Assembly: GCA_964017235.1 (NCBI GenBank)
Contig: OZ024936.1
Span: forward strand, 37,098,040 to 37,162,039
Length of the DNA stretch: 64,000 nucleotides
Origin: Sabellastarte sp. h YS-2021
Taxonomy: Eukaryota > Annelida > Polychaeta > Sabellida > Sabellidae
Direction of reading: 5' to 3'
This document shows positions 6,748-41,815 of the stretch, in pieces. Both the position numbers and the translations under genes were made by a program. The notes under the pieces were generated by a model. It was not told the origin of the DNA. It was given only the letters and a program-made list of their open reading frames with translations, and ran no database searches. How positions within the stretch are numbered: the stretch's first letter is position 1; each line of letters opens with the position of its first letter.

Positions 6748-7190
6748 CAACTTTGAAATCTGGTTGAATCCAACATAGAAATCTGGTAGAAATACGTGTA
6801 GATTTTGCAAATCGTTTTTGGTTAGATCCAACCGGTGAAATCATGTTGAAACCAATGTTGAAATCAGGTTGAATTCAAAGGGTGAAATCTGGTTGAAATA
6901 CATGACAGTTTGCAAACCGTTTTTGGTTAGAGCCAACCGGTGAAATCATGTTGACACCAACGATGAAATCAGGTTGAATTCAAAGGGTGAAATCTGGTTG
7001 AAATAGATTTTGCAAACCATTTATGGTTGGATCCAACCACTGAAATCAGGTTGAAACCAATGTTGAATTCAATGGGCGAAATCAGGTTGAAATACGTGTT
7101 TTTGGATTTTGCAAACTGTTTTTGGTTGAATCCAATGTATGAAATAGGGTTGAATTCAATGGGTGAAATCAGGTTGTTTACACTGTCTTC
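6748..7190. repeat. GTTGAAATC minisatellite inside copy A
   Basis: Units combine TGAAATCAGGTTGAA, TTCAATGGGTGAAATC, GATTTTGCAAACCGTTTTTGG and GGATCCAACC. Roughly 120-130 bp makes one higher unit, repeated about four times with drift. The matching reverse-complement array lies at 36030-36480 in copy B. Confidence 0.85.
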
Positions 7191-8502
7191 TGTATTTGAA
7201 TCATTGTAGCTTGTGTGTCATAATTATAGCTTTTTAATAATATTATACAACTATCCATATACATATTTTACAATTTGGATACAACTTCAAAGTAATTAAT
7301 TTTTTCCAAGATGACATGTTTTCATGAATCATTATTTATTTAATATTCTATTTCTGTTGACATTGTAATGACACATAATTTTGTATCAGCTTTCAAATAT
7401 AATTGCTCAAGATATGTAAATCCATTTTTTCCAACTAGACATCCATTTTTATGTTATTAATAGGACCGGTATTATTCAATGTCTTCAATTGAAATTCTTT
7501 TGTGAAATTTTAAAATAAATTTATATTTTTTTCTTTGTAAAAAACAAACAATTGTGACATTATTTATATCTTCAGTATTTTATCCAATCAGTTTCTTTTA
7601 AATGTTTTGTTAAGTTGGCTGTAATTTTTCTGTAATTATAAAGAAGCTATAATCATGTAGCAAAGCCACAATGCTCACTTCAGATGCTTGTGTCTGCTAC
7701 AACTTTGCCATATAAACTGAAAAAAAACCCCACAAGAATAGCCACATTTGTAGAACTCCACCCATTACTCCCCACCTTACTTAATTGTCAGTTCTGACCC
7801 CCAAAACAGACCTAAAGAAGTAAACACCATGCATGCAATTGGGCAAGGGTAAACCTCCACCTCTGCTGTGTTATCTAATTACTTTTAGTCACAGCCCTAA
7901 TGTTCTGTGTAGCAGGTTACAGATAAGAAAAACCAGGAACCCCCATGACCTCAATAATGTGTGATAAAATGTTATAGCTTATTTTCTCTGTAAAGAGAAG
8001 TTTTCAGTGTAAACTTACAAACTGAAAACTAGTTAATTGAGCATGGGAGCATTTGAGAAACAAAGTCATTACTAAGTTTTGATAAATAAGTTTGAATTTA
8101 TCTTTTTTTATTTAAGAAAACTTTGACTTCAAAACATTTTTTTAATTATCAGGAATTGCATTAATCAAAATATAATTATAAATTATAACAATTATATTTG
8201 GGTGCATCAGTTTTGTTGTTGCTATAAATTAATAAGGAGAATTAATGGACACAAATGTATAAGTACATGCACGCATAATCTTTATCATCTTTATAATCTT
8301 AAGTTTAAAAATTAGTCTTTGCTTTACAAATACCTACAAATTCAAAAACTATTGCAATAATAGTTCTTTCGAAAAGTTAGACTTAATCACTATATCTCCC
8401 TCTAGAAAAAGAATTTTCAATCAACGATCACTAGTCATTCATTTCCCAACATTCAACCTGTTTTCTGTTCAATAACATGACTAAGATTTCATGTCGGAAA
8501 AC

Positions 8503-10427: not shown

Positions 10428-11444
10428 TTATGAAAAAGTAATGTTAACCAGGCGTTGGAATGTAAGGGGAACTTGTAAAGCTTGTGAGGTGTTGTCAGAA
10501 ATGTAACACCAAACCGCATCACTACTCCATAAGCCATGAGATTTGATTGCAGACAGTGAAGCATTAGCATCATATGCTATTGTAGCTGCAGAGCGACGGA
10601 ATGTGTGAAATCCATGAGCTTGTAACGGAACTCCCATAGTGCAAAGGAATGTGGCCAGGCGAGACCTCAAGTTAGATTGTGTTAACAAGTGATAATCGTC
10701 TAAAACCAGAAGAGGATCGTCTGGCTGCAAACAAAATTTCTTCAACAGTGCTGCTAACGTCTTGACAGGGCATATATTTAGTACGCGGATAGTTGGGAGT
10801 TTAACAAAGTGTATCTTTTCAGGGGCCTGTATATTTTTTCCCCATTTGATCTTTATATGTACACCCGGAGGGGCAAATGTAATGTCAGACCGAAGAAGAT
10901 GATGTTTCTTGTCAAATTGGGTAGAAGAAACTGGTGCCAAATTAGAAATGCGGAAAAGGCCATAGAATGCCAATAAATATGCAGCTCGGTATGTCAAAGA
11001 GCTCTCAAAGGATTCACACAATTGCGAGATCTCATGGATTTGGTTTAGCGAGAACAAACCTTTTGGTCGGGGATTAGGGGGTACTGTATACTGAAGTCCA
11101 CGCAGGAATTTCCTAACTAATGGTGACTCAAAAACATCAATTCCCCAAGAATATCTGGCAAAGTGGTGCTTCAATGCTGACATATAATTATTAATCACCC
11201 TAAATGTTAATGCATTGGCTGCAAGGAACTCCAAGAAACATAATACTGATGAGACAGAGTCCCATTTTTCACATTTATATTGTAACATAAATGCTACAAA
11301 TAGTTTGAACTGCTTGATATACTGAGCTCTGGTATGTGGACGAAGTCCTTTCTGAACTGTTCCCATGGCTTGATAAAACCACCTGCCCAAGGCATTGGGG
11401 ATATCTAAAAAACAGCAAGCAAATGATGAGGGACAATATCCCAT
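10428..11444 (-). CDS. Tyrosine recombinase of Ngaro-like retrotransposon
   Basis: This 338-residue protein would integrate a circular DNA copy of the element by site-specific recombination instead of a DDE integrase. An N-terminal SAM-like DNA-binding region (about 30-115) precedes the catalytic domain. The catalytic set is visible: R165 in FYGLFRISNL, H280-x-x-R283 in HTFRRS, H303/W306 in SHGLW, and the nucleophile candidate Y314. All are present and the frame is open. It overlaps the end of the upstream RT-RNase H frame by 40 bp in another frame, so it is probably expressed by frameshifting or re-initiation. It is the last gene in the element. The YR assignment is firm; Ngaro rather than another DIRS-order clade rests on the absence of a methyltransferase domain and on gene order. 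Confidence 0.9.
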   Translation of the reverse strand: MGYCPSSFACCFLDIPNALGRWFYQAMGTVQKGLRPHTRAQYIKQFKLFVAFMLQYKCEKWDSVSSVLCFLEFLAANALTFRVINNYMSALKHHFARYSWGIDVFESPLVRKFLRGLQYTVPPNPRPKGLFSLNQIHEISQLCESFESSLTYRAAYLLAFYGLFRISNLAPVSSTQFDKKHHLLRSDITFAPPGVHIKIKWGKNIQAPEKIHFVKLPTIRVLNICPVKTLAALLKKFCLQPDDPLLVLDDYHLLTQSNLRSRLATFLCTMGVPLQAHGFHTFRRSAATIAYDANASLSAIKSHGLWSSDAVWCYISDNTSQALQVPLTFQRLVNITFS

Positions 11445-13552
11445 TGTACCTCCCCAAGATTGTTATATTTGCCTCTAGACAGTGAATCAGCCATAGCATT
11501 ATCTATTCCTCTGACATGCTGTAACCTAAGACCTATGTTATGTAGTGCACACAACATTGCTAACTGTCGAATACACATATCTAAGAAAGCGTCCTTCGTT
11601 TTTCCTGAGTTAATGACTGTAACCGCGCTCTGATTGTCACAATGTACACATACAGTTTTGTTTGCTAGGTCTGAAGCCCAAAGATGAATAGCTAAGAGGA
11701 CATTATATAATTCATATTGAGTAATAGATCTTTCACCAATTATTTCAACTGGGATGACAGTCGAATAAACTCGTGAACCCCCGGTGCCCCCGAGATACTT
11801 CAGACTTGCATCTACATAAATGTGATGTTGGATGGGAGGTTTCTTAAAGTAAACCACTCCATTGAACGAATGCATGAAGGTAAGGAACCATGCCAAACTC
11901 TCGTATGTTCCCTGATCTAGTGTGACCCTAGCTTTATCCGTGTGATTCCTAAGAGTTATCAATAGTCGATTGAGAAAAATTCTCGATGATTTCACGCAAC
12001 GAGATATGTATAACAACTTTCCCAATAACGACTGAAAATCTCGTTTTGAAACCACATCTCGCAGAAAAGTCTGTACACAAATTGCTCTAATCTCGTCCAA
12101 TTTCGCTTTATCAATACTGAAGGAAGCTGTGTTTACATCCACTACAATTCCCATAATGGTTAATGAAGTGGTAGGCGAAAATACCTTCTGAGGATTCATG
12201 GGCAGGCCAACTTCTGTAATGACCGAGATGAGACTTTGAAAAGCATGTTTAGCTGTGTCAACATGACAACATGCATAGATATCATCTATGTAATTGAAAA
12301 CGTGAATTCCTTGTTTTGCCAAGATAAACCGTATGAAGTCCGTTATTCTCTGAAATATTGCTGTTCCATGTACTGCCCCAAAGGCTAGGAACTTGTCGAT
12401 ATAATACTTGTTTCTCCACTTCATTCCCAAGTGAATTGCGTCCCCTGGATCAATAGGGACATGCCTAAAAGCACGAGCTATATCAATTTTAAAAACTCGA
12501 GCTTCACTTCCCAAAGACTGGAGTGTGGGTATTAAAGCGTCTAACGTAGGTAAGGTCAAGTTAAACGACATACCATCATAACAGGTCTTATCTGTATGGT
12601 TATTAACAGAATGGTCGCCATAAGTCAGATCCAATATTACTCGCCTTCCTGTTCCTTTAGGTCTGGTCATCAATGGTGCCCACGTAAACGCAGGGTGAGG
12701 TTCCTCCTCAAATGGGCCAAATAACGCACCTTCTTCCAATTCCTTCTTAAAGAAGGCATCAATCTCCTCTCCATATTCATTTGCAGATGCATGGTTGTCC
12801 TGCGCATTATTTGTAATTTGGTCCCTTGAAGCGATGTTCAGTGGGAAACCAAACTTTAGATAATCCAGCAACCTACCATCATGATATGAACCTATGTGCT
12901 GTTGTAGGTAGCTCCAGTTGAAAACAGAAGGAAGTGGAACGCGAACGGAACGATAATTGGGCAGACCAGATGCCAATACATCTGACACCAATGCCAGGTA
13001 AGCTTTATGATCTTTCATATTAATAGGTGTGCTATTGAAGGCAATATTTTGCTTAGATGGTTGTGTAACAAAACCAAGATCATAGTTAAATTGCTCAACT
13101 TTATTTACAGAACCACAATGTCTTTGTAACTCAATAGCAGGATCTTTAGTAACTGATAACTGACCACCGCATGATTCAGTCTTTACTGATATCACTGATT
13201 CACTAAAGTTTGTTGGAACAACACTTTCAGGTACACATCTTGTTATCCGAGATCTGAGATTTAAACTCTCGTTGGCCTTGTCTACAAACAAATGTTCTTC
13301 CAGCTTATGACAATTACAGTAAGCTAGTAATGGGCTACCAATAAAGTTAGCCACTGAACGATCTCGCAAGTTACCATAAGGACCTTTACTATGCATGTAA
13401 TTAATATGTACAAAGTTGGCAGATACATCATCCAGACACTCCACAGATTCAACACACGGGGAGAACCCCTTTAAATTACACCCAACACCACTTTTATGAC
13501 AATAAGCATACTGAGTAAAGTTACAATTAACAGAATTATACATATGTGACAA
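11405..13552 (-). CDS. Reverse transcriptase-RNase H of Ngaro-like retrotransposon
   Basis: This 715-residue polyprotein copies the element's RNA into DNA and degrades the template. The first ~250 residues are cysteine-rich and not recognised. The RT lies at about 255-520 with the first catalytic aspartate in KIDIARAFRHVP (D357) and the YIDD box at 421-424. RNase H lies at about 575-695 with D581 (YVDAS), E614 (YELYN), D639 (CDNQSA) and D689 (ADSLSR). All expected catalytic residues are present and no stop interrupts the frame. It sits 27 bp downstream of the gag-like ORF and overlaps the recombinase ORF by 40 bp, so the three genes form one transcript. No protease or integrase follows, as expected for the DIRS order. 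Confidence 0.92.
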   Translation of the reverse strand: MSHMYNSVNCNFTQYAYCHKSGVGCNLKGFSPCVESVECLDDVSANFVHINYMHSKGPYGNLRDRSVANFIGSPLLAYCNCHKLEEHLFVDKANESLNLRSRITRCVPESVVPTNFSESVISVKTESCGGQLSVTKDPAIELQRHCGSVNKVEQFNYDLGFVTQPSKQNIAFNSTPINMKDHKAYLALVSDVLASGLPNYRSVRVPLPSVFNWSYLQQHIGSYHDGRLLDYLKFGFPLNIASRDQITNNAQDNHASANEYGEEIDAFFKKELEEGALFGPFEEEPHPAFTWAPLMTRPKGTGRRVILDLTYGDHSVNNHTDKTCYDGMSFNLTLPTLDALIPTLQSLGSEARVFKIDIARAFRHVPIDPGDAIHLGMKWRNKYYIDKFLAFGAVHGTAIFQRITDFIRFILAKQGIHVFNYIDDIYACCHVDTAKHAFQSLISVITEVGLPMNPQKVFSPTTSLTIMGIVVDVNTASFSIDKAKLDEIRAICVQTFLRDVVSKRDFQSLLGKLLYISRCVKSSRIFLNRLLITLRNHTDKARVTLDQGTYESLAWFLTFMHSFNGVVYFKKPPIQHHIYVDASLKYLGGTGGSRVYSTVIPVEIIGERSITQYELYNVLLAIHLWASDLANKTVCVHCDNQSAVTVINSGKTKDAFLDMCIRQLAMLCALHNIGLRLQHVRGIDNAMADSLSRGKYNNLGEVQWDIVPHHLLAVF

Positions 13553-13579
13553 GCAGTCAAAGTTACAACCAATGTTTCC

Positions 13580-15142
13580 CTAGTCCATACCAGTTTTCTT
13601 CTTGTTGAAGCAGTCAGCTTCCACGTGAACATTATTGCGTTTCAGAGTCTTAAAACAATAAAGGCATACATGTCGAAATAACGTCGTACCCGTTATATCC
13701 AGGTGATCTGCTGAATGAGGACACGTGCCCTCGTTAAACCACTTGCATGCAATTTTCTTAATCGATCCATTGCCAGGGGTTGTCTGTTGGATGCGAGGCG
13801 ACATTGTTGTTGATCCTGAGAATACGGCGGATTGAGAGTAAGTGAGACGATGGTCCGCGAGAGTTCTGGAATCAGCCCATGTAATTCCTTCGTCTTCAAT
13901 TTTGAGCATCGAAGCAGCAAAGGCACCCCTGGCAATGGGCCAAGAAATGTTTTCCGCCAACTTAACCGTCTCAACTAACTCGTTCAGCATGTTCTTCATA
14001 GTGGGTATGTGCTGCGTATCAAGTGCATTAGTTACCAATCCTATGACAAATTGCCCCAACGTGAGTTCATCAAAGGTCGTCCGTTTCCTAGCTGTGCCGA
14101 TGACACAAGATTCATTTGGCCATCTTAAGTGTGGTGTTGAATGTGGGGTGTCCGAAATGTTGTATCTGCCACTTTTTCTGCGTCGCGACATACCCCCTTG
14201 CAATTCAAGTTTCATCTTCGCTTCTAACAGCGCCATCCGCTCCTCCACCATTTGCTGAATTAGTGGGTTCGATCTCAGCATATTTATATTCGATACAGGT
14301 CCGGCATCAACAGTTATGGGATGCTCCGTGACTGGAACAAATGTATCACGTACTTCGGGAACTGCCTCAGCTGGACCTTGCACTCTCACAGGATTGCCAA
14401 ACTGGTCCACATGTCCAAACAGAATGTTTTGATTACAGTCCTGGACAACAGGTTGCTTTGTCTGAAGTCCACTATCAGGTGGTTGCTGCACGATATCTTG
14501 TGGTGTGGTCCAGATCTGCGTAGGTGGATCCTGTGGTTGTGCAACAGTCTCAGCTAAAGGTTGAGAAACTGTCTGAGATGTAACAGTTGAAGTCACGCGT
14601 GCTGTGGCCGTCTGCATGAGAGGTGTACAGCCCAAGTCTTTGGTTGCCTTATGTTTCTTTGGACGTACTGGTGTAGGTTTAATGGCCACTGCCGTGTCCG
14701 CGAATACTTGAGAGTAAGCTGTGCCTCCCTCCTGTATAACTGCATGAGCAGCCACTGGTGAACTAAACAGTGCTTCTTCTTTATCAGGAGTTCCCCGTCG
14801 TTTGACTTGTTCTCGGGAACAAGATTTCCTTGTAGAAGGTTTTACAGCCGGGGTATCAATACGTGCTGTCAACCCCGATATTCTTTCATCCATACCAGCC
14901 AGTTTCTCAGTAACGGAGTTCATAGTGTGTAACATCATATCCATCATCTTCTTGTGAGAGTCAGCTGGCTTTCCCCGTGGTGTTTTCTTTACAGTCTCGC
15001 GACTGAGATCATGTTTCTCTTCTTTCACATTCTTAAGTTTCTCGCACTTATTTCCAATGGGTTTCTCATGCTCGCTATTGCATTTCTTACAGAATCCAAG
15101 TGCGGGTTTAGGTAACGTATCCGTAGAAGTATTAGCAGCCAT
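13580..15142 (-). CDS. Gag-like nucleic-acid-binding protein of Ngaro-like element
   Basis: A 520-residue ORF1 protein. The N-terminus carries C-x2-C-x3-H-x3-P-x-G-x2-C (about residues 18-33), which recurs in the second element at 60.4 kb. A lysine-rich stretch and a short coiled-coil-like segment with METHIONINE/leucine heptads follow (about 60-95), then a low-complexity Gln/Pro/Thr region. Near the C-terminus is a CCHC/CCCH-like cluster starting CKWFNEGTC and continuing H-x2-C-x2-C. By position and composition it is the structural protein that packages the RNA. The start Met is followed by a plausible N-terminus and no upstream in-frame ATG was seen. Function is inferred from position and zinc-binding motifs. 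Confidence 0.8.
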   Translation of the reverse strand: MAANTSTDTLPKPALGFCKKCNSEHEKPIGNKCEKLKNVKEEKHDLSRETVKKTPRGKPADSHKKMMDMMLHTMNSVTEKLAGMDERISGLTARIDTPAVKPSTRKSCSREQVKRRGTPDKEEALFSSPVAAHAVIQEGGTAYSQVFADTAVAIKPTPVRPKKHKATKDLGCTPLMQTATARVTSTVTSQTVSQPLAETVAQPQDPPTQIWTTPQDIVQQPPDSGLQTKQPVVQDCNQNILFGHVDQFGNPVRVQGPAEAVPEVRDTFVPVTEHPITVDAGPVSNINMLRSNPLIQQMVEERMALLEAKMKLELQGGMSRRRKSGRYNISDTPHSTPHLRWPNESCVIGTARKRTTFDELTLGQFVIGLVTNALDTQHIPTMKNMLNELVETVKLAENISWPIARGAFAASMLKIEDEGITWADSRTLADHRLTYSQSAVFSGSTTMSPRIQQTTPGNGSIKKIACKWFNEGTCPHSADHLDITGTTLFRHVCLYCFKTLKRNNVHVEADCFNKKKTGMD

Positions 15143-16597: not shown

Positions 16598-18541
16598 TTA
16601 CCATTCATTAATGAGTCTTTTGGTTGGTCTGGTCTCACGTGGTGATCTTCTGGGTTCACTCAATCCAGGTTGGCTGTTGTCTGCAATCTTAACACTTTTG
16701 TGACTATTTTTTCTTGGTGGTTTGTTGCTACAATCAATAGTGCCACCATTGTCTGTACACACACTTTTGTTTGGCATTTTGGAGATAAACCTTCTGTTTC
16801 TTCTGCAGCGAGTGCCTTCTGTGGTTTGTATTATGTATGAGCCTGCTTTTTCTGTTGCTGAGACAATAGTAACAGGGGACCAATCTAGATCATGTGATTG
16901 TACCATGACGGTCTCACCAGGTTTAAGTGGTGCTAATTCCTTGGTGTCATGGTCATAATAGGCTTTTATGTAAGCTTGCATCTGAGCAAGCACAGACTTT
17001 GTACTTTCTAATTCTGGTTTGTACTTTGTAGCAGACGGTAGTACAGATCAAACAGGTCTGTTATACAATAGTTCTGCAGGTGATGGTAGAGAATTAGACA
17101 CTGGTGTAGAAGGAAGTAATAGAAAAGCTAGATCTGGGTCACACTTTCCCAGGGTGCATTTCTTCAAGGTAGCCTTTGCAGTATGGACAAGTGATTCAGC
17201 AAATCCATTATATTCTGAGGGAAGTGAGGACTTGAGGTGACATGTTGGAACCCATATCTCAGAGAGAATTGACGGAATTCCTCACTGCTGTAATATGGAC
17301 GGTTATCAGAGTAGAGTATGCGAGGTATACTATGTTCCTAGAAGATTTGCTTCAAGTGTTGTGCTATGAGCTTTGTATTTTCACCATTCAATCTCCTCAA
17401 GATAGGAAATTTGCTGTAGTAGTCACCGACTATAAGGTATTTCTGGCCATTGTAATCAAATAGACCAGTTCCCAGTATTTCCCAAGGTGAACTTGGCAGA
17501 TCTCTTTCATGCATTGGTTCTGGTGGGAGACTGTCGGCATATGTGTTGCAAATTGTACAATTTCCAAGATTTTCAATATCTTTGTCAATGTATGGCCAGT
17601 AAACACATTTTCGTCCTTGGAATCTTGTTTCTGATATACCTTGGTGTGAGTGGTTGTGCAACTGATTCAGCACATCTCCTTGCAGTTTCGGTGGTATTAT
17701 GATTCTTTTGCCTTTGTGTAAGATTCCATCATCTATACTTATAAAGTCTTTAACTGACCGGAAGGGTTTCAGAGAAGAGGGTAACAGGGAACACTGGTTG
17801 GGCCATCCAGAAGTGCCCATGTGAAGTAGTCCACTGAGAGTAAACAGTCTGCACTTGTTTCCTGTTTCAGCTGTGCAAGCTTCTGTTTGCTCCATCGTAT
17901 AGAATGTATGGTAAGATCTAGTGGTATTTTCCTGTCGCTCTTTTGTGAACAATGGCGGGATAGAAAGTCAGCAAGCTGTAGTTTTGAGCCTTTGCGATAT
18001 TTAATACAGATATTGTATGGCTGAAGTCTGAGCATGATATGTTGTTATCTTGGAGGAGCTTGTGCAATACTTTTAAGGTGAATAGCCCCAAGTGGCTTAT
18101 GCTCAGATTCAACAATGATTTCCTTTGACCCAAAGATGTATGGATGGAACTTTTCAGCCCCAAACACCACAGCCAAGAATTCTCTTTCTATGTTTGCATT
18201 GTGTTTCTGTCTCTTTAGCTTTTGGCTGCAAAAGAAACTATGTGTTCTGTGTTTAGTTGCTTTGGATCAATTTGGATCAATGCTGCTCCAAGGGCTTTGC
18301 GACTTGCATAAACTTGAATTTTCGTCTCCAGTGTCGGGTTAAAGTAATTGAGTGTCACCAAATCAGTGATGCTATCCTTCAATGCTTGAAATGACTCTGT
18401 GTGTGATGCAGTTCATTTAAACTCAGCATCCTTTTTCAGCAGATTTCACAGGGATCTGTCTGGTCCGAAAGTTTTGGAATGAAGCGTGCCATGCACTGAA
18501 TCATCTCCAAGAAAGTCTGCAGCTCCTGCTTTGTGGTAGGA
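16598..18541 (-). pseudogene. Gypsy-type pol remnant: RNase H and integrase
   Basis: Read on the minus strand from 18541, the fragment begins in the RT thumb/connection (KQELQTF...ARFIPKLS), passes through RNase H pieces (ASRKALGAAL, IVESEHKPLGAI, YRKGSKLQLADFLSRH) and an H2C2 integrase zinc-binding region (HNHSHQGISETR ... CTICNTY, about 17740-17560), and enters the integrase core (GLFDYNGQKYLIVGDYYSKF; second Asp in YSDNRPYYSS). It ends in a basic C-terminal part with a last open piece at 16993-16598. Several stops and frameshifts break the frame, so it is dead. It is the downstream half of the element whose upstream half lies at 26567-28625; an 8-kb LINE separates them. Confidence 0.88.
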
Positions 18542-18551
18542 GTAGGTAAGG

Positions 18552-18555
<4 letters not shown>
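18542..18555. repeat. LINE target-site duplication, left copy
   Basis: GTAGGTAAGGCTTT here matches 26567-26580 exactly. Joining the two flanks at this word restores the continuity of the Gypsy pol coding order (end of RT to its connection region). Confidence 0.9.
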
Positions 18556-18584
<29 letters not shown>

Positions 18585-18835
18585 TTCTCCACACCAGTCA
18601 CATTAGAAACATACATATATTCAATACAAAAGGAATACATACATACAACATATACTTATTCAAAACAGTGTAATTACAGAACCAGATTTACTATTGTAAG
18701 AAATATTAATTTTTTTTTTTAATATTGTCAAGAGAAAACAGAAAAGAAGACATTTTAGGCCAAACAGTTTTTACATTGAATAGCACAGTATGACACAGGA
18801 GGGGGGGAAACAAGAAAGAGGCTGTGCTGTGGTTC

Positions 18836-21137
18836 TTAACACAAACATACCCTAACAGGGTCCCATTTTTCATTGAATCGTGTTACAGTCACATCTTTTT
18901 TAATTACTATATTATATTCAATTTCCATAACCTCCTTTATCAAGTGCATAGCCTCAGGTAAATTAAGTCTTTTTGACAGAAATTTAGTTACATAAATATA
19001 TTTTTTACATATACTGAATATATTATTTATTAAATCTTTCTTATTTTTGTTTAATACTCCTAAAATAATACACTTTGCATTCAAAAAACTATCCAGGTCT
19101 AGCTTACCGAGAAAATTTTTCCTAACTTGTTCCCAGAACTTTTTAACAATTGGACATCCCCAAAATAAGTGTTCTATAGTTTCACATTCTATGCCACAAA
19201 AGCTGCATTTATCATTATCCTTGATCTTACAGATCTTCAAAAATTTATTAGTTGTTAATATTCTCTGGAGTATTTTAAATTGAAAACTCCTCAATTTCGA
19301 GTCAATTGTACTAGTTAGGTTGGCAACAAAATATTTTTGTAAGGTTTCATATGATATATTCTCATTGAGAGTATTGCTCCATTTCTGTTCAGTGGTTCTA
19401 CGTTTAGTATTATATAGTTTCATAAAGGTCCAATATGTTCTCTTGCAAACTTTATCAAATTTTAATAGGTCTAGTAGCACTTTCTGTGGCATGTTGTGGT
19501 CATCCAATTTTTTTTTAAATTCTGAAATTTCTAAACGCCATGGTCTTGGGAGAGAGTGAATAAGTGAATAAAAATCTACAAAGTTAATTCTAACATTGAA
19601 TTTTTGCACAAAGTCTGAGTAGCCAAGTATATTTCCAGACTCATCAAGCAAGTTATTTATATATTTGATACCCTGTTTTTGTAATTCTTTTTTCTTCAAA
19701 ATTAGGTTTGGATGTACCAAGTAAAAAGTATTCCAAAGGGGGTAGGTTCGAACATCTATTTCTTTTTCAAAATTAAGCTTATACTTTTTCCAGGCTATGA
19801 GAACCTCTTCCCAAAATAAATTGCCCATTCTTTTAGTCATATACTCCAGAGAATAGCAATCTAGTTCCCAAATCTGATTTTTGTCCATATCACTCAATTT
19901 TTCAAAAATGGTTTGCCAATCACCACATTTTATAAAAGTCCGTTTGATCCATGCTAGCTTTAAGGCATCATTTAAGCAGAACAGATTTGTCAACTTTAGT
20001 CCCCCTTCAACAAAATCCTGCTCTAATTGTGACAGTGTCATTCTCGGTTTTGATGTACCCCAAATGAACTTTCTAAAGAGTTTGTGTAATAAATTGAGTA
20101 TTTCTTCTGATGGTTTTGGGAGGACCGACATTGGATATACAAGTTTAGGGATGGCCAAAGACTTAATAACTGTTATTTTGCCCACAAGTGAAATTTTTCT
20201 TTTTGCATAAGAATTTAAAAGTTTTTCAATGTTAGCTAACCTGGGTTGATAGTTTTTATCCATCATTAATTCTATATTATTGGTAAATTCGATCCCAAGA
20301 AGCTTGAAGTGTTTTACCCAGTTTAGGTTTAAATCTGGACATAGATTGTTATTTGCATTCTTCAGGAAACCAATCCAAGCTACTTGGGTCTTTTGCATGT
20401 TCATTTTAAGACCTGAACATTGGAAAAATTTCTCAAAAATGGTTATACTTTCCCTGAGAGAATTTTCTGATCCATCTAAAAGTAAAAAAGTATCATCAGC
20501 ATATTGCCCAATTTTGTACTGATCACTCCTTATCTTTATACCTTGGATATTGTTATTATTTTTTACCGTCATAGCTAATGGTTCTATAGCTAGAATAAAT
20601 ATATATGGACTCAGAGGATCTCCTTGTCTGCAACCCCTGCCCAAATGAAACTGCTCTGAAAGGTATCCATTATTTATAACACATGAACAGGAGTCTGTGT
20701 AGAGAATTTTAAACCACTTTATGAAACTGCTACCAAAATTATAAGCTCTTAAAATTTTGGTCATGTACTCCCACTCTATGGAGTCAAAGGCCTTTTCAAA
20801 ATCAATTAGTAGAATAAGTCCTTCTTTTCCTTTCTTTTTTAATATGCTAATGATGTCATACACCAAACGAATATTTTCACCTATGTATCTGTCTTTTAGG
20901 AATCCCTTTTGAGAACTGCTTATGATATGTGGTAAAACTCTTCTCATTCTCATAGCCAAAATTCCTGACAATATTTTATAGTCCACATTCAAAAGTGTGA
21001 TTGGACGCAAGTTCTTCATGAATTCTTGGGATTTTTCACCCTTTGGAAGACAGGTCAGAATTCCTAGTCTTTGGGTTATTGATAATTTTGATTTTGTAAA
21101 TGCTTCATTTAGACTGTCAATTAAGAATTTTCCTAAG

Positions 21138-21168
<31 letters not shown>

Positions 21169-22648
21169 GGAAGCCATCACTTCCCGGTACTTTGCCGTTT
21201 TTCATATTTTTTAAAACCTCTTTTGCCTCAGCTTCAGTTATTAGACCTTCACATTTATTTTGGTCATTTTCGGACAACTTTGTAATATTTTTCCTGTCTA
21301 AGAAAAAGTTTGCATCTGTTGAACTTAAGCATTTTGAACTATAGAGGTCATTGTAGAATGATCTCATTTCCCTTAATATGTCTTTCTGATTATAGATTAG
21401 CTGGCCGTTGACATTCAATTTTGAAACAGACTTACTTGAAGAATTTCTCTTTTCTATATTACAGAAGAATTTTGTTGGCTTTTCCCCCTCTTCATAATAT
21501 TGAACTTTACTTCTCATGACTATTGCCCTAATTTTCCGTTGACGCAGGGCTTCCAGGTCATTTTGAAGAGTCCTTAGGTCTGTTTCAATTTGATGCAATA
21601 TATGCTTAGAAACATTCCTCTGCTGGGTGCAGACAAGTAGATCTCTGAGCTTAAGAATGTTATTTTCCATAGTTTGTTCCTGTTTTTTTTCACATTTTGC
21701 TTTATACGAAGAATATGATATTGTTTTACCCCTAACATTTAGCTTGATCATTTCAAAGATCATTTGATTGTCCATAACTGTAGTAGTATGATCAGACTTT
21801 ATGTCTGAAATTGTATTTTGGATCTCTGTTTTTACCATTTCAACATACTGTATATCTTGTAATAGAGAGGTATTCAATTTCCAATAGCTCCTTCCACGTG
21901 TTATATTAAAATTTTCTAGGTATAAATATATAAAGGAGTGATCAGTCCTATATCCATGATACATCCCAACTTTAGATATGTTTAATTGAATGTCAGGGGT
22001 AACCAAATAAAAATCCAGTCTAGCCATTTGCCTTGGTGACTTTGTACTAAACCAAGTATATTTTTTAAGGTCTTGGTTGGCTGTTCTCCAAGGGTCTGTG
22101 AGGTCAAGAATTGTTTTTATATATTCCACCTTGGATTGAGCACTTTTATTATTTTCATGGACATATCCAAAGGTGTCAAGCTGATAATTTTGAACCAAGT
22201 TCCAATCGCCACAGATGACAATTGATGAGATATCTGATTCTAAAAGTTTTTGTTTCATATTAATGTAAAAGTTGGGATCATCTCTGTTTGGACCATATAT
22301 GGTTACTAATAGAAATTCAAAATGTTTTGAAACCAAAAGCTTCACAATGGTAAGATTACCATCATTTTGTTTGTAAATCGATTTAATTTCAAAATCTAGG
22401 GTTGCAGAAAAGAGAATTGCAACACCTCTACTGGCGGAGGAGTTGGAGTTCAAAATGCATTTCCCACCCCAATCATCCATAAACTGTTCTTCAGTAGCAG
22501 AATCCGAATGTGTGTCTTGACAATAAATATCCATTTTTTTACTCTTTATCCAGTCAAAAACGTCTTGTCTTTTTTTCGTATTTGCTAAACCCCTGACATT
22601 CATACTACCTATTCTCAAGCAGCCGTTTATAGCTTGTACATTATGCAT
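18836..22648 (-). CDS. LINE ORF2: endonuclease-reverse transcriptase
   Basis: A 1,270-residue protein that nicks the target and primes reverse transcription there. An APE-like endonuclease spans about 10-245: N17 in SMNVRG, QDTH (44-47, Asp where Glu is usual), YGPN (118-121), GDWN (147-150), ARLDFYL (D212) and DH (236-237). The RT spans about 480-760 with LIDFEKAFD (614-622), RQGDPLSP (674-681) and QYADD (715-719). A C-terminal C-x2-C-x8-H-x4-C zinc knuckle starts at C1148. There is no stop or frameshift over 3.8 kb, which suggests a recent insertion. ORF order, RT motifs and the terminal CCHC place it in the L1/Tx1 group; the exact clade is not resolved. Confidence 0.95.
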
Positions 22649-24682
22649 TTATTGCTGAAGCATTCACACAGCATGCTAATTACGTACATCAGTAAACATA
22701 TATTTTTATATGATATTTGGTGAGAGCTTAACATAGATCTAAATGTGACTTGGAATTGGAGATTATAGATGAACAAAAACAACATTAATATTAATAATAT
22801 TAGTACAACAATACAGTAATACAGTACAGTGAAAAACAAAAAAAAACAAAAAAAATCAAAAGAAATGAATCAGTTATAAGGTTTCTGATATTTGTTTTAT
22901 ATATGGCGGGTATTAAATAACACATACTCCAGAACTGTAAATGGAAAAACTAACCCAATAACCTTTTTCAGAAGATTATGCTGGGAGTACTTTTAGTAGA
23001 AGTAATATACATTTGTTATTATATTACATGATAGTCTCCATAATAGTCTCAAAAGACCTATGCTAACTGGAACAGCAGAATTGTCTACTTGTTTTTGTCA
23101 CTTGTATTGTTTTTAATTGGTGAGAAGAGTAAACACTCAAATAATGATCAGAGATATTCTACCAAATTTTTAATACCATTTTACTCTTAATGCAATAGTT
23201 TTGAAGTTACAACAATTTACACAACAGTGGTAATCTTAAAGTAGCTATTACTCCGCTATACAATAAGGCTACATGTCTGCAATTTTGCCGAAAAACATAC
23301 TTGTACAAACTTCTCTAAGTTCAAAAGCTTTCAAGTTACAAATGTTTTTAGTTATTATTGATGGTACTGAAAAAGTCAAGAAGAAGCAATTGCTCACAGA
23401 AAATATGTGTACAAATTTCTCTTAATGTGAAGCTTTCAAAGTACAAGTGTTTTTAGTTATTATTCAAGGTACTGAAAAAGTCAAGAAGAAGCAATTGCTC
23501 ACCGAGCTATTGGGGGAGACACCCTAGTTACTCACCATGTTGTAGCTATGGAAAAAGTAGCTGAATAACATATTATAACTAAAGGCTCTAAATGCTATAC
23601 TTTTCAAATTACAAGTGATTAAAAGCATGATTTCATGAATTTTAACACATTTAAAAAAAATTTTTTTTTTTTAAATTAAGACAGATCAATCCCACAAGAC
23701 CATCTATCAGTGACCTAGTACATAAATGTATATGCATGTTAAAAGAGAAGACCCTGCAATAGTCCATGAGAAAAATTGTGATCAACTGTTGAAATTCTCT
23801 TGCTTTGGGTTAGAGTACCTCACTTGCTCTGTCTCTGGGCCTTGCACTTTTGGAGAAGTTGTACATGCAGACACTAGAGTGATGCCATGTAATGAGCTGA
23901 CTTAAAAAGGTAGTGGTATGTCTGATCCACACAGTAATGATACACACCAAATCAAGAAACAGTTGACATACATATATTCTTAAATTCAATTCTCACATCT
24001 TTTTACGCCAAAAATTAACCATGCGTCTTATTAAGAATTAAGTAGAATTGTAGGGCAATGTAATATAATTGTATTCTATTTAGCAGTACCATTACTCACA
24101 AACATGAATCGCAAATTATGAACAAATATTGCAAAGCACCTCTTCAATATCAATATGAAATATGCCAATATAAAATTTACTAAAAGAAGATATCTTATCA
24201 TAATTGATAGACTTTTCAGGGTTTAGTTTTGTACAAAAATTTATTACATTTTGTTAAAGACCAATAGATGTGACATACATTCTTAAATTCAATTTGCATA
24301 TCTTTTTATGCCAGAAATTAAACCATGCGTCTTACATTACATTACAATGCGTCAACATTACTCACAAACATAAAACACAAATTATGAAACAAATACGGCA
24401 AAGCACCTCTTCAATATCAATATAAAATATAATAATATACTACAGACAATTATCTTGTCAAAAGGGTTAACAATTTTTAACTAAAATAAACCTGTTACAC
24501 ATAGTGTGTATTTTCTTAGTTCATGAGAAAAGTTTCCTAAAATATATGACATATAGGACACTTATATCATACTATAGGATAGCATAGTTTGAAAACAAAT
24601 GTTATTCCAGTACTGTCTAATTTATCCACCACAAGAAATTACTATATCAGGACATCAGTTTTCATAAAAAGTCTATTTCAAT
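22649..24682. repeat. Satellite-bearing insertion between LINE ORF1 and ORF2
   Basis: This 2-kb stretch has no gene. 23180-23600 carries diverged 155-bp satellite units (TTTTCAAGTTACAA, AGCTATTACTC, GTTGTAGCTATGGAAAAAGTAGCTG). 23600-23920 repeats the flanking sequence seen at 4060-4480 (GATTTCATGAATTTTAA, AGACAGATC, GAGAAAATTGTGAT, TTTTGGAGAAG). The rest includes a direct repeat starting at 23964 and 24272. Insertion ends were not resolved; 22649-22900 and 24480-24682 are probably LINE sequence. Confidence 0.75.
23964..24440. repeat. ~308-bp direct repeat, two diverged units
   Basis: GACATACAT...TCTTAAATTCAATT, ACCATGCGTCTTA, ATTACTCACAAACAT and GCAAAGCACCTCTTCAATATC occur at 23964-24190 and again at 24272-24440, in the same order. 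They lie directly after the satellite-flank sequence inside the LINE. Confidence 0.8.
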
Positions 24683-26182
24683 TTACAAGTTTGATCTAAG
24701 TTCCATGAGAAGTTTCCCCAATTGATTCTTTCCTGGCCATTTATTGATATCTTTAATTTTTGGATCAGATGAGCTAAGACCGCAAGACCAAAACTGGTCG
24801 TACTTGTTGGCTTCAATGATTCTTCTTTGTTCTGTACGGAACAGAAATTGCTTGAAGTACGGTTTGGAGAACTTTGCAGACAAACCTGTACGCATCACCT
24901 GAACTGCCTGTGTTGTGTACCACTCTGTATTAGATGACTTGAGCTGATCTCCAAGGCTCTTCATATTAACTGGATCTTTTGCAAGAAGAATTTTCTGCAC
25001 AATGTCTCTTCTTTTGGCAAAGATAGCACGTTGCGCTTGATAATATTGTTCTACACAGTTGTAGGTAACACCCTCTATGTCAAACACTGCTGGATGGAAG
25101 TTACTAAGTGGAGAGAACCTCCCATAGAAAGCGACATGTTCTCCAGACATTACCATACTAAGAGCTGCAGTATCCAGATCAAGCTTGCTTATTTCATCCA
25201 AACTGTATTTTTGGCCTTTATAATAGAGTTTATCCCCGGTTATATATGAATCTTTGTCCTTTTGCTTGGCAATTTTCAACACAGGTGCCAGAATACGTCT
25301 AGCTAGTCGTACATTGTCTGTGTAATCATGGTTGATCCATATTTTGTGGGTGCTTCCTTCTTCCAGTTGCTCGTTTGATGCCTTTGAAGAAAGTAGTGAT
25401 CTTCTAGACATAATTTCTTCTTTATGTGCGTAGTTAATAACACGTGCAATGATTGGACGAGGTTTTGGATGCTCTGATACGGCTCCAGCAAAAGTCAGAG
25501 TTTTCTTCTTTCCAACTCGGTGCACTCGTGAAAATTGTATTCTTTTCCTTGCATCCTGGATTAACAACTTTTCTGTAAGTAGGTCAAAGATCACCTCAAA
25601 ACAGTTTTCATTTTGAGATTCTTTTAGACCTTCAAAAATGATATTTTCTCTTCTCGAGTATTCCTCCAGCCTTGTTAATGAAGATTCCAGTGAATCACAT
25701 CTTACTTTCCATAAGTTGTTATTATAGCACTCACCACCCTTACTTTTAGTTTCTTCACTTAGTGTGTGTAAGTCTGTTTTCACTTTTACAATAGTGGCAT
25801 TTGAAATTTCAAGGCTTTTTTCCACATCATTGATCCTAGATTCCTGTTCACCAACTCTTTTTTCTAGTGTCGCAAACTTTTCAGTTAACATTTTCATGTT
25901 CTGACTCATCTCATCAATAGGCTTTATTTTTTCTATTATGAAATCTAGTTTTGCCTCAATATTTGAGTTTGATGTGACACTGTCTGTCTTAGTTTTTCCT
26001 TTATTAGCACACAGTTTCTCTGCCATTTTCAAGCTGTGTATACCCTTATCACTACAAGTGAAATCTACAAGTGTTTTTTGTTTTTTTATCTCTGGACTTA
26101 CTTTCTGGTTATTCCCACTTTTCCTATGTTTTCTTTTCCAAGGTTTAGGTGACATTTCAAAAACATAAGCACAAATTTCCAT
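24683..26182 (-). CDS. LINE ORF1 protein with C-terminal NADAR domain
   Basis: A 499-residue ORF1 protein. Residues 11-40 are lysine/arginine-rich. About 75-180 is coiled coil (heptads through the MKMLTEKFATLEKRVGEQ region). About 178-335 resembles the L1 ORF1 RRM plus C-terminal domain (RRENIIFEGLKES, RVHRVGKKK, RPIIARVINYAHKEEI). About 350-497 is a complete NADAR domain (minus-strand bases 25135-24692): FYGRFSPLSNFHP, VEQYYQAQRA with E378, DPVNMKSLGDQ, W421, FWSCGL (W465, G468) and GKNQLGKLLMELR. The first part is the usual RNA-binding chaperone of LINEs. NADAR enzymes cleave N-glycosidic bonds on ADP-ribose-related substrates, including ADP-ribosylated guanine. A NADAR domain is not a usual part of LINE ORF1. 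Met10 (26155) is an alternative start. The frame is fully open. Confidence 0.92.
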   Translation of the reverse strand: MEICAYVFEMSPKPWKRKHRKSGNNQKVSPEIKKQKTLVDFTCSDKGIHSLKMAEKLCANKGKTKTDSVTSNSNIEAKLDFIIEKIKPIDEMSQNMKMLTEKFATLEKRVGEQESRINDVEKSLEISNATIVKVKTDLHTLSEETKSKGGECYNNNLWKVRCDSLESSLTRLEEYSRRENIIFEGLKESQNENCFEVIFDLLTEKLLIQDARKRIQFSRVHRVGKKKTLTFAGAVSEHPKPRPIIARVINYAHKEEIMSRRSLLSSKASNEQLEEGSTHKIWINHDYTDNVRLARRILAPVLKIAKQKDKDSYITGDKLYYKGQKYSLDEISKLDLDTAALSMVMSGEHVAFYGRFSPLSNFHPAVFDIEGVTYNCVEQYYQAQRAIFAKRRDIVQKILLAKDPVNMKSLGDQLKSSNTEWYTTQAVQVMRTGLSAKFSKPYFKQFLFRTEQRRIIEANKYDQFWSCGLSSSDPKIKDINKWPGKNQLGKLLMELRSNL

Positions 26183-26350
26183 TCATATTGCCAAAACACA
26201 CATAGATGTCTGATTAAAAAGTTTTTGTTTTATCTCTGGACTAACTTTATGGTTATTTACATTTTTCCTATATTTTCTTTTCCAAGATTTAGGTGGCATT
26301 TCAAAACGCATAACACACATTTCCATACATATTGCCAAACCACACCTAAA
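26041..26350 (-). repeat. 144-bp tandem duplication of the ORF1 start region
   Basis: About 26088-26200 and 26232-26345 are ~85 percent identical at an offset of 144 bp. The upstream copy encodes a variant of the first ~36 ORF1 residues (PPKSWKRKYRK against SPKPWKRKHRK) and then runs into a stop after passing the junction (open to 26183). It is a partial, non-functional second ORF1 start in the 5' region. Confidence 0.85.
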
Positions 26351-26566
26351 ACAACTGATCTGAAAGTGCAGAGTAATTGAAAACATTTATCCCAAAAGCT
26401 TCTGAGTGCTAATTTCCAAGTTGGGGGAATACACCTGTTTAACCTTTAATATGGCTTTTTTCTGCCAAAGTTTCTATTCTGCACACCAAAGTCCAAATGC
26501 TGTCTTGTTGATATCCTTTTATGGAAATAAATGTGTCACCTTTCAATATGACTCTGATGTGCCCTT

Positions 26567-27730
26567 GTAGGTAAGGCTTTGATTTCTTGTATGCCACATT
26601 CGGGACAAACACCATCTTTACTGTATGTCATGCTGAAGAAGTTTTTTTGTGGGACTTTCACAAAACACTCTTCTGGGTTCAAGACAAACCCATTTTCCAC
26701 TGCTTTCTCCATGAATTTTTGCATGTTCACATCATGATCTTTTCCATCTTCATCAAAAATGCATATATCATCAGCTATACTAATGACTCCATGGAGACCA
26801 GAGGTAATGTGATCCATGCTTCCTTGGAAAAGATCTTGGCTCACATTGATGCCAAAGGGCAATCTGTTGAACTTGTACCTTTGATTTGATGCTGGTGAAT
26901 TAAATGTTGTGAGCATGCTGGATGGTTCATCCAAGACAATGATCCAGTAGTCATTCTTTGCATCAAGTTTGGAGAAGACAGTGGCTCCAGTTAATTTGTG
27001 GCTGATTTCTTCAACAGTTGGAGCTCTGTGGTAAGTGTGTTGAAGATTAGCATTGAGTTCTCTTGGGTCAAGGTAGATACAGAATTTGTTGTTTGGTTTT
27101 CTGGCATAAACTAGATTTGACAGACATGCAGTAGAGACACTTTATGGGACTTTGCTGATTATGCCTTGCTTTTCCATGTCATCTAGAGAAGATTGGATTT
27201 CACTTTTTAGATTAATTGGACAGCGTCTTGGGCTTTGTACCACAGGTGCGTGATCTTCTTTCAAGTGGAGGGTTGCTTTATTTGGAAATTTACCAAGACT
27301 TTCAAAAGCTTTGGGGTATTTAGAAATTAAGTCTGTTTTGTTCTTTATTGGCTCTTGAGATATGTTGACAACAGACACTGTGACTTCAGTTGCCGATTTA
27401 TTGATATTGATGAGCTCCAGTCTGCAACTATCCTCTAATCCAAGGATGATTGAACCATCAGATTCACACACAAAGAACTGCAGTGGTGTATAATTTATAC
27501 CATTAACAGAGCATAAAATTTCAGTTGTCCCATAGTGTGGTATTTCTTTCCCATCATATGATGTTAAGTTAGAAAGTGGTTGTGGGCATAACACAGTAGA
27601 ACTGGTATCAGGTTTTACAATGGCTAAGATGTACTGCGGGTATATCTGTTTGAAGCAGTGGCTTGGAAGAACATTGGTGCCTGCCCCAGTATCAACCTTG
27701 GCAACCAGAGTGTTTCAAGTTAAGTTTCAC
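26567..27730 (-). pseudogene. Gypsy-type pol remnant: protease and reverse transcriptase
   Basis: On the minus strand a retropepsin is visible: active-site DTGAG at about 27691-27677 and ILGLED near 27460. RT follows: KQGIISKVP, YLDPRELN, first Asp in FSKLDAKNDYW, RLPFGI, and an IADD box in place of the usual (Y/V)xDD. A TAA stop at about 27140 and an earlier frame change near 27595-27730 break the frame. It ends at the LINE insertion point and continues beyond the LINE at 18541. RT architecture is Ty3/Gypsy. Confidence 0.88.
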
Positions 27731-38900: not shown

Positions 38901-41815
38901 CTGATTACTGAGGCACCACTTTGTAAAAATGGTCTACTTTGCCTCATAGACAGATCTTGTTGATCTTCTTTGAGGAGCCTCAATTCGTGCTGCCACTGCC
39001 TCAGAGAAGCCTTGATCCTTGATTGCTGAGGCTCTAGGAGCCAGGCATGCAGGTTCAGATTCGACAGGTTCCTGTGAAGGACCTGGTTGCATGGCTGAGA
39101 CACTAGGTTGGGTATACTGGGCAGACACAGCGGAATCTGGCTTGACATTGCTACCAGGTCCCAAAACCAGGGCATGTTGGGCCACCCTGGAGCAATCAGA
39201 ATTATTCTGTTGCAGGGGTAGTCCTGGAGCTTCTCCACCACTTTGCCCAAGATGACTGCCGGTGGGAAGGCGTATGGGTCCAGGTTCTCCCAGGAGAGGC
39301 TGAGTGCATCCACTGCCCAAGCCTGGGGGTCTGGTACCGGTGATACAAACTGTGGCAGTTTGTTGTTGAACCTTGTGGCAAACAGGTCCACTTGTGGCTA
39401 GTGCCACCTGGAGCATACAGCTTGGAACACTTCTGGATGAAGTGACACAGCTTGGAACACTTCTGGATGAAGTGACCACTCTGTTTGAATGGTCTGGCCA
39501 AGCCTGGATAGCTTGTCTGCTATCACGTTCAGCCGGCCGGGGATGTGACGTGCCCTGAGAGTTACTTGCTGCCTGGTACACCAGGACAGTATTCTCCACA
39601 GTAGGGCACACAGGGAGCCCGATTTCATCCCCCCCTCTTTGTTGATATAGGCCACCACTGTTGTGTTGTCTGTAGCTATCAACACTGTCTTGTTGAGGAC
39701 GAGGGTTCGAAACTCCTTTAGAGCTAGAAATACTGCTTTCAGCTCCAAGTGGTTTATGTGCAACTTGCTCTCTGGTAGGGACCAAGTTCCCCTTGCAGTG
39801 TGCTCGTCTAAGTGAGTGCCCCACCCTTCTTTTGATGCGTCTGTAAAGATTTGCAGAGCATGTTTTAGAGGGTGTAATGGTTGACCTAGTAACACATTGC
39901 CTTCCTCCAGCCACCACCTTAGATGAGGGTGGAGGGATTTGGGAACAGGGATCACCTTTTCTAGTGATTCTGGGACCCTCCAGTTGTTTTTCAAGTGCCA
40001 CTGTATGAGTCTCATGTGTAGTCGCCCTAAGTGGACTTGTTTTTCTGTTGCTGTGAGTAGACCTATGAGGGACATGAATTTTCGGACCGGGCATACCGGA
40101 TTTGACAGTATTGATCTGATCTTGTCTGTCAAGGTCTGCCAACGTTCCTCTGTTGGTCTGACCTTGCCCTCCTTCAGGTTGAACTGGTAACCTACAAAGT
40201 TGAAGACCTGCTGTGGGACCAGTTCTGACTTTTCCCTGTTCACCAGCGACCCTAGTTCCTGGCACAGTGTGACTAGGGTTTGAGTATGCTGGAGACAGGT
40301 GTCGTGGGTAGAGGCTCTCACCAGCCAGTCGTCTAGGTACTGGTGGATCCTTATACCTTTCTGAAGTGCCATGAGTTTGACCTCTTTGGCCACCACTGTG
40401 AACTCCATGGGGGCTGTGGACAGGCCAAAGGGAAGGGCTTTGAACTGGTAGGACCTACCCTGGAGGTGAAAACGCATGTACTTCCTGGACTGACTGTGAA
40501 TTGGTATGTGGAAGTATGTGTCTTTGAAATCTATGGATGTGACCCACTCCCCTGCCTGTAGGGAGGTTCTTATTGTCTCTGGGGTCTCCATCTTGAACGA
40601 CCCTGTGTTTAAAAAGGTGTTCAAGGTGCTTAGGTCTAGGATCGGTCTCCACTGGTTGTTGGGTTTGGGCACCAAAAATAGCCGGTTGTAAAACCCCAGT
40701 GAGTTTGGATTTTCCACCGGTTCGACTGCATTTTTGTTTATCAGCTGATACAGTGCCTCTAAAAGGAAGGACTGTTTGGCTGGATTGTGGTAGTTGCTTA
40801 TTACAGTCGGTGACCTTGTCAAGTGGGGTCTGAACCGGAAGGGGAGTGTGTAACCCTCCCTCAATATGTTTACCACTTTTGGACTTGAACCCAGGGTTTC
40901 CCATTTCTCCCAACACTGGTTTAACCTCACCCCTACAGGAGGATCTAAAACAGCATGTTGGGCATTGGTGACAAGATTTACAGAATGCAAGTGACCTACA
41001 CAAAAAACATCTTTCACATATTTTATTTTTGTGTACAATTGAGGATTGGGATTTACGCCTTTCCTTTGCGGCAACCCGGTGACAATATGAGCATTTGCAA
41101 CATGAGAGTCTACATTTAAAGTCACTTTGCTGGTCTCTGCTGCCACAGGTACTGAGTCCAAGTCTCCCTGACCGGTAACACATACAGAGATCATCTGACC
41201 GGTCACAGAATTTACAGAGTAATTGTCATTTATGAGACTTGGACCCCTTAGCCGGCTTCTGGGAGAATGTGGAGGCTTTGCCACGACCTCTGGTCGCTTG
41301 CTGCTTGTCTTTGATTTGTTTCCAAGCAGGGACGTTCTTCTTGTCGGTGTGATGGCTAGTCGACTTGTCACTTGCTGCATATGGGTGAAAGCGACCTTGT
41401 TGTCGGTGTGAAGTACCGAAGAACACCTCTCCTCACTCTTACCGACTTCCTCTTCAGCTTTTGCTATAAGCTGGTCCGGGAATAAAGCATTCAGATGAAC
41501 TGGAGACGTTCTCAAGGCGTGCACAGTGTCTTGCTTCACCCCAGCATGTAAATAGTCCAAGTAACTATCCCTGCAAGCAAGGGTGAAGTTGGCCATGTTG
41601 ATAAAAACTGCATCTGAAAGATCTTGCATAGTCCTGGCCATTGCTTGAGATACTGACCGGTTGAAAGTGGTCAAATACTCCAGTTCACTAACAGCTTGCT
41701 TCACCTTCTCAGATGACTTCCCCTTACTGTCCAGATGCAGGGTTTTTAAGTGAGAGTTCATATAGTCTTGGACCCTGGTCAAACACCTTGACAAACCAGC
41801 AGCCTGGTTGCACAT
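38876..41815 (-). pseudogene. RT-RNase H of DIRS1-like element with in-frame TAG
   Basis: The 805-residue open part (41815-39398) starts in the gag-RT linker, has RT at about 300-560 (WVTSIDFKDTYFHIPI; LPFGLSTAP; YLDD at 493-496) and RNase H at about 600-770 (FTDASKEGWG; ELKAV; TDNTTVV; ADKLSR). A 30-bp tandem duplication (39420-39479) repeats ten residues, SLHPEVFQAV. It stops at TAG (39400-39398), but the same frame continues as DLFATRFNNKLPQFVSP to 38876, the usual C-terminal extension. The N-terminal end is in the same frame as the gag ORF upstream, separated by another TAG at 41863-41861. Confidence 0.9.

Follow-up and report, generated by a model that had tools for sequence, protein, structure and literature searches.

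The ORF1 protein (ORF1p) of a LINE retrotransposon in Sabellastarte sp. h YS-2021 carries a NADAR domain behind its L1-type RNA-binding parts and, judged by the selection acting on its codons, this domain is real and functional. The reading we favor, built on sequence comparison and given a probability of roughly 45%, is that of an ORF1p-borne NADAR hydrolase that would clean ADP-ribose off the RNA or cDNA of the LINE. The element lies in a stretch of 64,000 nucleotides (the window; contig OZ024936.1, positions 37,098,040 to 37,162,039), where ORF1 is a single unbroken frame of 499 codons plus a stop on the minus strand at 24683-26182. By hmmscan, residues 356-499 of ORF1 matched the NADAR profile PF08719 with an E-value of 2.4e-34 (119.4 bits against a cut-off of 35.1), and phmmer matched ORF1 to the solved NADARs 8bau (9.9e-12) and YbiA 2b3w (7.6e-9). 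A profile made from 27 rows, the window ORF1 and 26 homologues, gave 282 matches at E up to 1, and the best 60 of these included human L1 ORF1p (2ykp at 9e-18, 2yko at 1e-17; coiled coil, RRM and CTD, positions 83-243) as well as NADARs at 5.6e-34 and 1.1e-26, the rest of the 60 being mostly coiled coils by name. Given the matches to both NADARs and human L1 ORF1p, ORF1 encodes an L1-type ORF1p in which a NADAR follows the CTD. A preliminary description, made from the DNA letters, had proposed just such a fusion in an unbroken frame, with coiled coil and RRM-like parts. The matches bear out each of these points; the position it gave for the NADAR, 24692-25135, is right within about 20 bases of 24686-25117, and all four NADAR motifs that it quoted are found in ORF1. 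A chance match or a fusion made in assembly was considered, and is ruled out by the significance of the PF08719 match, six long-matching copies and the target-site duplication.

The bounds of the LINE, at about 18553-26566, follow from the 14 bases GTAGGTAAGGCTTT common to 18542 and 26567, which represent a target-site duplication of 11-14 bases, together with a run of 30 T from 18553 on the plus strand that is the poly-A of the element. The features are:

18553..26566, minus strand: LINE insertion (ORF1, 2-kb spacer, ORF2, poly-A), about 8.0 kb, slightly 5'-truncated
24683..26182, minus strand: ORF1, 499 aa, with coiled coil, RRM, CTD and NADAR (ORF reading and profile matches)
24686..25117, minus strand: NADAR domain, residues 356-499 (PF08719 at 2.4e-34 and alignment to 8bau)
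25148..25657, minus strand: RRM and CTD of an L1-type ORF1p, residues ~176-345, inner borders approximate (matches to 2ykp, 2yko, 2ldy and 2w7a)
25658..25975, minus strand: coiled coil, residues ~70-175 (the L1 ORF1 coiled coil 6fia at E 0.005, among many coiled-coil chains)
18836..22648, minus strand: ORF2, 1270 aa, with endonuclease (weak match), reverse transcriptase and zf-RVT (Pfam)
22649..24682, minus strand: ORF1-ORF2 spacer, 2 kb, without a large ORF (ORF scan); part of the mobile unit
18542..18555, plus strand: target-site duplication copy adjoining the poly-A end; its last 3 bases possibly belong to the T run
26567..26580, plus strand: target-site duplication copy at the element 5' end

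In ORF2, Pfam recorded RVT_1 (1e-35), zf-RVT (1.9e-7) and Exo_endo_phos (2.3e-4), the last at 21.4 bits, below the Pfam cut-off of 24.5, with the corresponding match in two other loci (L015 and L024) above it. The ORF1p domains, the ORF2 domains and the poly-A with target-site duplication are all present, as in a LINE with an L1-type (Type II) ORF1p; the name Tx1 for it follows the wording of PMC12477816 on oyster elements and not a reverse-transcriptase phylogeny. Among 20 loci of ~10 kb, six (L010, L011, L012, L013, L018 and L021) match the window across ORF1, spacer and ORF2 with 98.2-99.8% DNA identity, and this high identity, as far as sequence comparison goes, suggests recent movement. 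In a further locus, L009, ORF1 is 99.6% identical but the match goes no further than 22534, the 3' edge of the spacer. Because L010 and L011 share sequence that runs past 26566, the window copy is slightly truncated at its 5' end. The ORF scan of the 2-kb spacer gave a longest new ORF of 70 aa and none larger.

The spacer (22649-24682) is unusually long and holds internal duplications (23325/23430, 23970/24273 and 24121/24388); its segment 23182-23836 resembles sequence of L009, L013 and L022 outside their ORF1, and is perhaps a nested repeat. The first ~105 bases of ORF1 are repeated at 84% identity just upstream (26078-26204 against 26222-26348), and L011 has at 5605-7758 a 718-aa ORF1 frame with residues 208-431 in duplicate, reaching into the NADAR. 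The LINE stands between LTR-retrotransposon-like pieces (17338-17952 and 27142-27594), one with an Integrase_H2C2 match and the other, 27142-27594, protease/RT-like by eye with no Pfam match, and these two flanks suggest that the LINE landed in an older element. Elsewhere in the window, RVT_1 elements of DIRS-like look occur at 10428-15142 and 56027-60419, each beside a separate ORF of ~335 aa; that of the former has weak tyrosine-recombinase matches (Phage_integrase 1.9e-4, below cut-off) and that of the latter no Pfam match. Another retroelement, an 805-aa ORF with RVT_1 and RNase H-like domains, lies at 39398-41815, an apparently host-type gene for a 361-aa leucine-rich-repeat protein at 46086-47171 (plus strand), and a LINE-like piece with an RT frame and a weak, below-cut-off endonuclease match at 62163-63960.

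Selection on the NADAR was read from pairs of copies. Between the window and L014, ORF1 is 75% identical, with values of 84% for the NADAR, 86% for the RRM, 75% for the CTD and 61% for the coiled coil. The NADAR differences of this pair fall 22/8/71 on codon positions 1/2/3, and they make 25 amino-acid changes, relative to a mean of 67 and a minimum of 55 in 300 simulations without selection. Codon-position bias in the NADAR was found in four of six pairs at p between 8e-15 and 2e-7, the constraint being likewise present in window/L022, L039/L037 and L042/L045 (p 2e-9 to 2e-7). It was weaker for L044/L043 (p 0.04; dN/dS 0.14 at dS 0.115) and not significant for L038/L041 (p 0.58, dN/dS 0.30, 13 NADAR differences). 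NG86 values were calculated for eight pairs with overall dS of 0.05 to 1.6; window/L014 is not among these, and the evidence for that pair is the codon positions. IQ-TREE, which used 22 of 33 rows with 11 left out and gave tree lengths of 42-62 that indicate saturation, printed two values of omega for each part: 0.08/0.066 for the RRM, 0.10/0.083 for the NADAR, 0.12/0.124 for the CTD and 0.16/0.142 for the coiled coil, where the alignment holds rows with a broken or missing coiled coil (L012, L013, L019 and L020) and coiled-coil values that include them are unsound. As estimated from these alignments, purifying selection on the NADAR is close to the level seen for the RRM, and the check over the NADAR part that the preliminary description had called for thus came out in its favor, by codon positions as well as omega. 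By this selection, the NADAR is not a passenger.

The whole ORF1 was used as a query against the genome (1.786 Gb in 647 contigs), and the NADAR or its remains were found in all 86 match rows, the number scored of 2709 candidates. In 79 of these the match extends to residue 480 or beyond; in the other seven (L011, L018 and L077-L081) the NADAR is wholly or partly in frame, or in another frame, and that of L079 comprises only 49 residues within the piece fetched. Two of the 86 rows (339-487 and 358-498) match via the NADAR alone, and two are pieces of one place. Since the whole-ORF1 query contains the NADAR, it favors NADAR-bearing copies. When residues 172-345 alone served as the query, 150 of 686 candidates were scored as matches, and six further loci taken from the places new to that list, five with frames of 320-371 aa in which a NADAR seemed unlikely and one with a frame of 422 aa, all proved to have one: in frame in L086 and L087, in a shifted frame in three and interrupted in L085. 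Both searches score the best candidates only and could have overlooked a NADAR-less lineage that is more distant. Across 40 loci fetched, 20 of them picked from places mostly without stops, 32 have a frame open from residue 170 or earlier to residue 489 or later. Copies without the NADAR, or neutral decay confined to it, would by the preliminary description have spoken against its proposal; both were looked for, and neither was found in the copies examined.

In contrast, ORF1s without a NADAR are seen among database proteins. Residues 150-345 matched 41 of these; for 35 no Pfam domain is listed, and the sources named for them are Acropora, Montipora and Actinostola. Seven of the 35 were aligned: P0033 (Acropora), P0035, P0049, P0051 and P0053 end at the CTD, ~15-20 residues short of the NADAR start, whereas P0028 and P0029 stop earlier. 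P0028, considered as a NADAR-less ORF1, was rejected as it breaks off inside the CTD. Because the coral ORF1 and similar ones end at the CTD, the NADAR would seem, from these alignments, to have been added at the C-terminus of an ordinary ORF1p. In a midpoint-rooted tree of 78 NADAR rows the ORF1 NADARs fall together (58 against 20 rows, support 74/80), and by its support values this tree is too weak to say where the ORF1 NADAR came from. Two free-standing NADAR proteins, P0068 (211 aa) and P0069 (149 aa), are placed among the LINE NADARs with weak support; either may represent an animal or viral source of the domain.

We compared the residues of the ORF1 NADAR with those of the Phytophthora NADAR 8bau, in which E43 and E125 hold the distal ribose and K50 the phosphates (PMC11543638). 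By our own matching, E378, R385, E457, D462 and W465 occupy the positions of E43, K50, E125, D130 and W133. Their conservation was scored in 68 aligned rows (the window, 32 loci, P0001-P0027 and P0064-P0071), of which P0001 repeats the window and 64 are ORF1s or pieces of them, P0068-P0071 being the others. E457 is kept in 68/68, E378 in 67/68, D462 in 66/68 and W465 in 64/68, with F in three rows and G in one. Position 385 is basic in 60 of the 68 (K in 32, R in 28), with L in four, Y in three and Q in one. In the six later loci, position 465 is F in L082, L084 and L086 and Y in L087. According to PMC11543638, the glutamate at E125 is a mark of the YbiA subfamily, with Asp in DarT-linked and His in phage NADARs. 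The ORF1 domain has a profile match above cut-off, E457 at the E125 position and the basic R385 at the K50 position, as in that subfamily; the hallmark Asp of the DarTG1 antitoxin (BC4488-type) is absent, its place being taken by E457. The ORF1 NADAR is thus very probably an active enzyme. Two differences count against our favored reading: R79 of 8bau, which contacts the pyrophosphate, corresponds to D412 in ORF1, and a conserved Trp is, by our own reading, one residue off register (W421, Y422). Loss of the basic residue at 385 in eight rows, and of Trp at 465 in some rows and later loci, counts against it as well. The specificity of the ORF1 NADAR may differ from that of known NADARs, as judged from these positions. 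At the corresponding lysine of the C7 NADAR, the K95R mutant hydrolysed guanine-ADPr in vitro, which favors our reading, and did not rescue cells, which does not (PMC11543638).

The history of ORF1 was then compared with that of ORF2. Relative to the window element (family A), a second family, B, is 75-79% identical in ORF1 over the part present and only 31% identical in ORF2; its members L015, L016, L017, L019 and L020 have in common an intact ORF2 frame of 1257 aa, with L028 as a broken relative. Identity to the window is 38% in ORF1 and 49% in ORF2 for family C and, over partial lengths, 54% and 53% for D and 35% and 58% for E. At the DNA level, A and B resemble each other in ORF1, including a match to the repeat of the ORF1 start, and in a stretch of 34 bases near the 5' end; short matches aside, the similarity ends at the end of ORF1. 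The reverse-transcriptase tree splits A, C, D and E from B at 100/100, whereas A and B are nearest by branch length in the ORF1 tree, which has no fork at the starred support level. The identities, the extent of DNA similarity and the two trees together indicate that ORF1-NADAR and ORF2 differ in history. On this sequence evidence, the ORF1-NADAR block is one that has changed reverse-transcriptase partners. Transfer of a whole ORF1 is known in the Jockey superfamily (PMC4120745).

In the mechanism we propose, the ORF1p would be an L1-type RNA coat that ends in a NADAR hydrolase of YbiA type, predicted to be catalytically competent, and the coat would carry one NADAR per ORF1p onto the LINE RNA. 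During target-primed reverse transcription the NADAR would come near single-stranded cDNA and would cut the N-glycosidic bond that joins guanine to ADP-ribose, or act likewise on a related conjugate of ADP-ribose with nucleic acid; removal of the ADP-ribose would then unblock reverse transcription and translation of the LINE. A hydrolase of this kind, freeing the LINE RNA or cDNA of ADP-ribose, is the least costly reading. It brings together a NADAR fused to the coat, glutamates that are conserved, codons under selection, retention across the families seen, and the occurrence of NADARs in invertebrate RNA viruses, which include picornaviruses of annelids and bivalves (PMC9503650). Its components differ in strength: the odds seem even that the substrate is nucleic-acid-linked ADP-ribose, and a host defense as the source of the mark is put forward more tentatively. 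The two biochemical premises of the preliminary description have backing in print, in that eukaryotic NADARs retain guanine de-ADP-ribosylation (PMC11543638) and, for the shellfish enzymes it invoked, guanine-N2 ADP-ribosylating activity on DNA is reported from six edible clams (PMC11209040). Erasure of pierisin or CARP-1 marks by a NADAR is, in PMC11543638, an assumption. We searched the genome with profiles, intron-bearing genes being matched exon by exon. For DarT (PF14487) there were no matches in the 1.786-Gb genome, which counts against our favored reading, and one of 14 control genomes matched; the Scabin-like profile PF22596 gave none in the genome and, as it also gave none in the 14 controls, carries no weight either way. 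It is doubtful, though conceivable, that host cells defend themselves by ADP-ribosylating retroelement RNA or cDNA, with the ORF1-NADAR block spreading between reverse-transcriptase lineages by conferring resistance, in the manner of phage antitoxin mimics.

The same glutamates would also serve an enzyme whose substrate is not the LINE nucleic acid but soluble ADP-ribose or NAD derivatives, such as immune signals or by-products of RNA repair. Substrates of this kind were proposed for viral NADARs from their context in PMC9503650, where one section prefers soluble ADP-ribose derivatives and another macromolecular marks for RNA viruses, and riboflavin intermediates are further substrates of bacterial and plant NADARs (PMC9303266, PMC11125620). 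A soluble substrate would have no need of a fusion to an RNA coat, kept in the families seen, that puts the NADAR on the RNP, and we regard this alternative as rather unlikely. Less likely still is a NADAR that processes LINE RNA in a normal step (caps, 5' ends, a trans-splicing-like reaction or RNP maturation) rather than against a defense, in line with the suggestion in PMC12477816 that RNA intermediates are processed. The coral ORF1 and similar ones manage without a NADAR. Human and mouse L1 ORF1p also end after the CTD, which we count against a processing role.

The variable phosphate-contact positions (385, 412 and 465 in some rows) would suit a NADAR that has become a non-enzymatic reader of nucleic acid or ADP-ribose and adds affinity only. 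Against this, E457 never varies across the 68 rows and E378 does so only once, where identities among the 27 database rows fall as low as 22%, and a mere reader is accordingly improbable in our estimation. A chance or passenger fusion without function would find its one foothold in L038/L041, the pair in which constraint was not significant. With codon-position bias in four of six pairs, 32 of 40 frames open, and a NADAR in all 86 match rows and the six later loci, such a fusion is scarcely credible, and for the family it is, on the reading of selection given above, already refuted. Of these readings we prefer the hydrolase acting on ADP-ribosylated LINE RNA or cDNA. If the NADAR does erase guanine ADP-ribosylation, this would point to an ADP-ribosylation defense against retroelements in animals that is directed at nucleic acids, and would assign a function to part of the animal NADARs, whose roles are called unclear in PMC11125620. 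The LINEs offer a large natural set of variants of a single enzyme on a single scaffold, for which the NADAR-less ORF1s, from a coral and the like, form a natural control. Some proteins listed as mollusc NADARs may be LINE ORF1 proteins and not host genes.

The fusion of a NADAR to a LINE ORF1 is already in print, although the preliminary description was not aware of a report: a 2025 paper on Ectocarpus (PMC12477816) mentions a YbiA-family NADAR in Tx1 LINE ORF1s of Crassostrea gigas, with the wording 'appear to constitute'. Among 15 papers naming the NADAR domain, it was the one devoted to transposable elements, judged by title. A literature search, whose scope left out the supplement of that paper, bioRxiv and most subscription journals, returned no selection test, catalytic-residue analysis or change of ORF2 partner for LINE NADARs. 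What is new here is the evidence on NADAR retention, on the catalytic residues and on the change of partner. The Crassostrea gigas elements (Repbase, PMC12477816) are the closest known system, with a NADAR on a LINE ORF1 in both; they are mentioned there briefly, whereas the present analysis concerns another genome and covers whole elements, selection, catalytic residues and partner change. An LTR retrotransposon with a captured NADAR is likewise a case of capture by a retrotransposon, but on Pol instead of ORF1, and the LTR-element NADARs are described as retrieving almost only bacterial matches. The CR1/L2 LINEs (PMC3905857, PMC4120745) have in common with the present element an enzyme on the ORF1p and whole-ORF1 transfer between lineages, but their enzyme is an esterase, linked to lipids or membranes, in another LINE superfamily. 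DarT1-NADAR (DarTG1) and the Phytophthora protein 8bau share the NADAR fold and the glutamate/lysine region, and the guanine-ADPr activity of NADARs is described in PMC11543638; DarT-linked NADARs differ in having Asp where the ORF1 NADAR has Glu, and here the NADAR is fused to an ORF1p and no DarT match accompanies it. SNA-3 of nematodes (PMC9303266) is also an animal NADAR protein in an RNP, but it is described there as a host protein with three NADARs, and that account mentions no ORF1p part.
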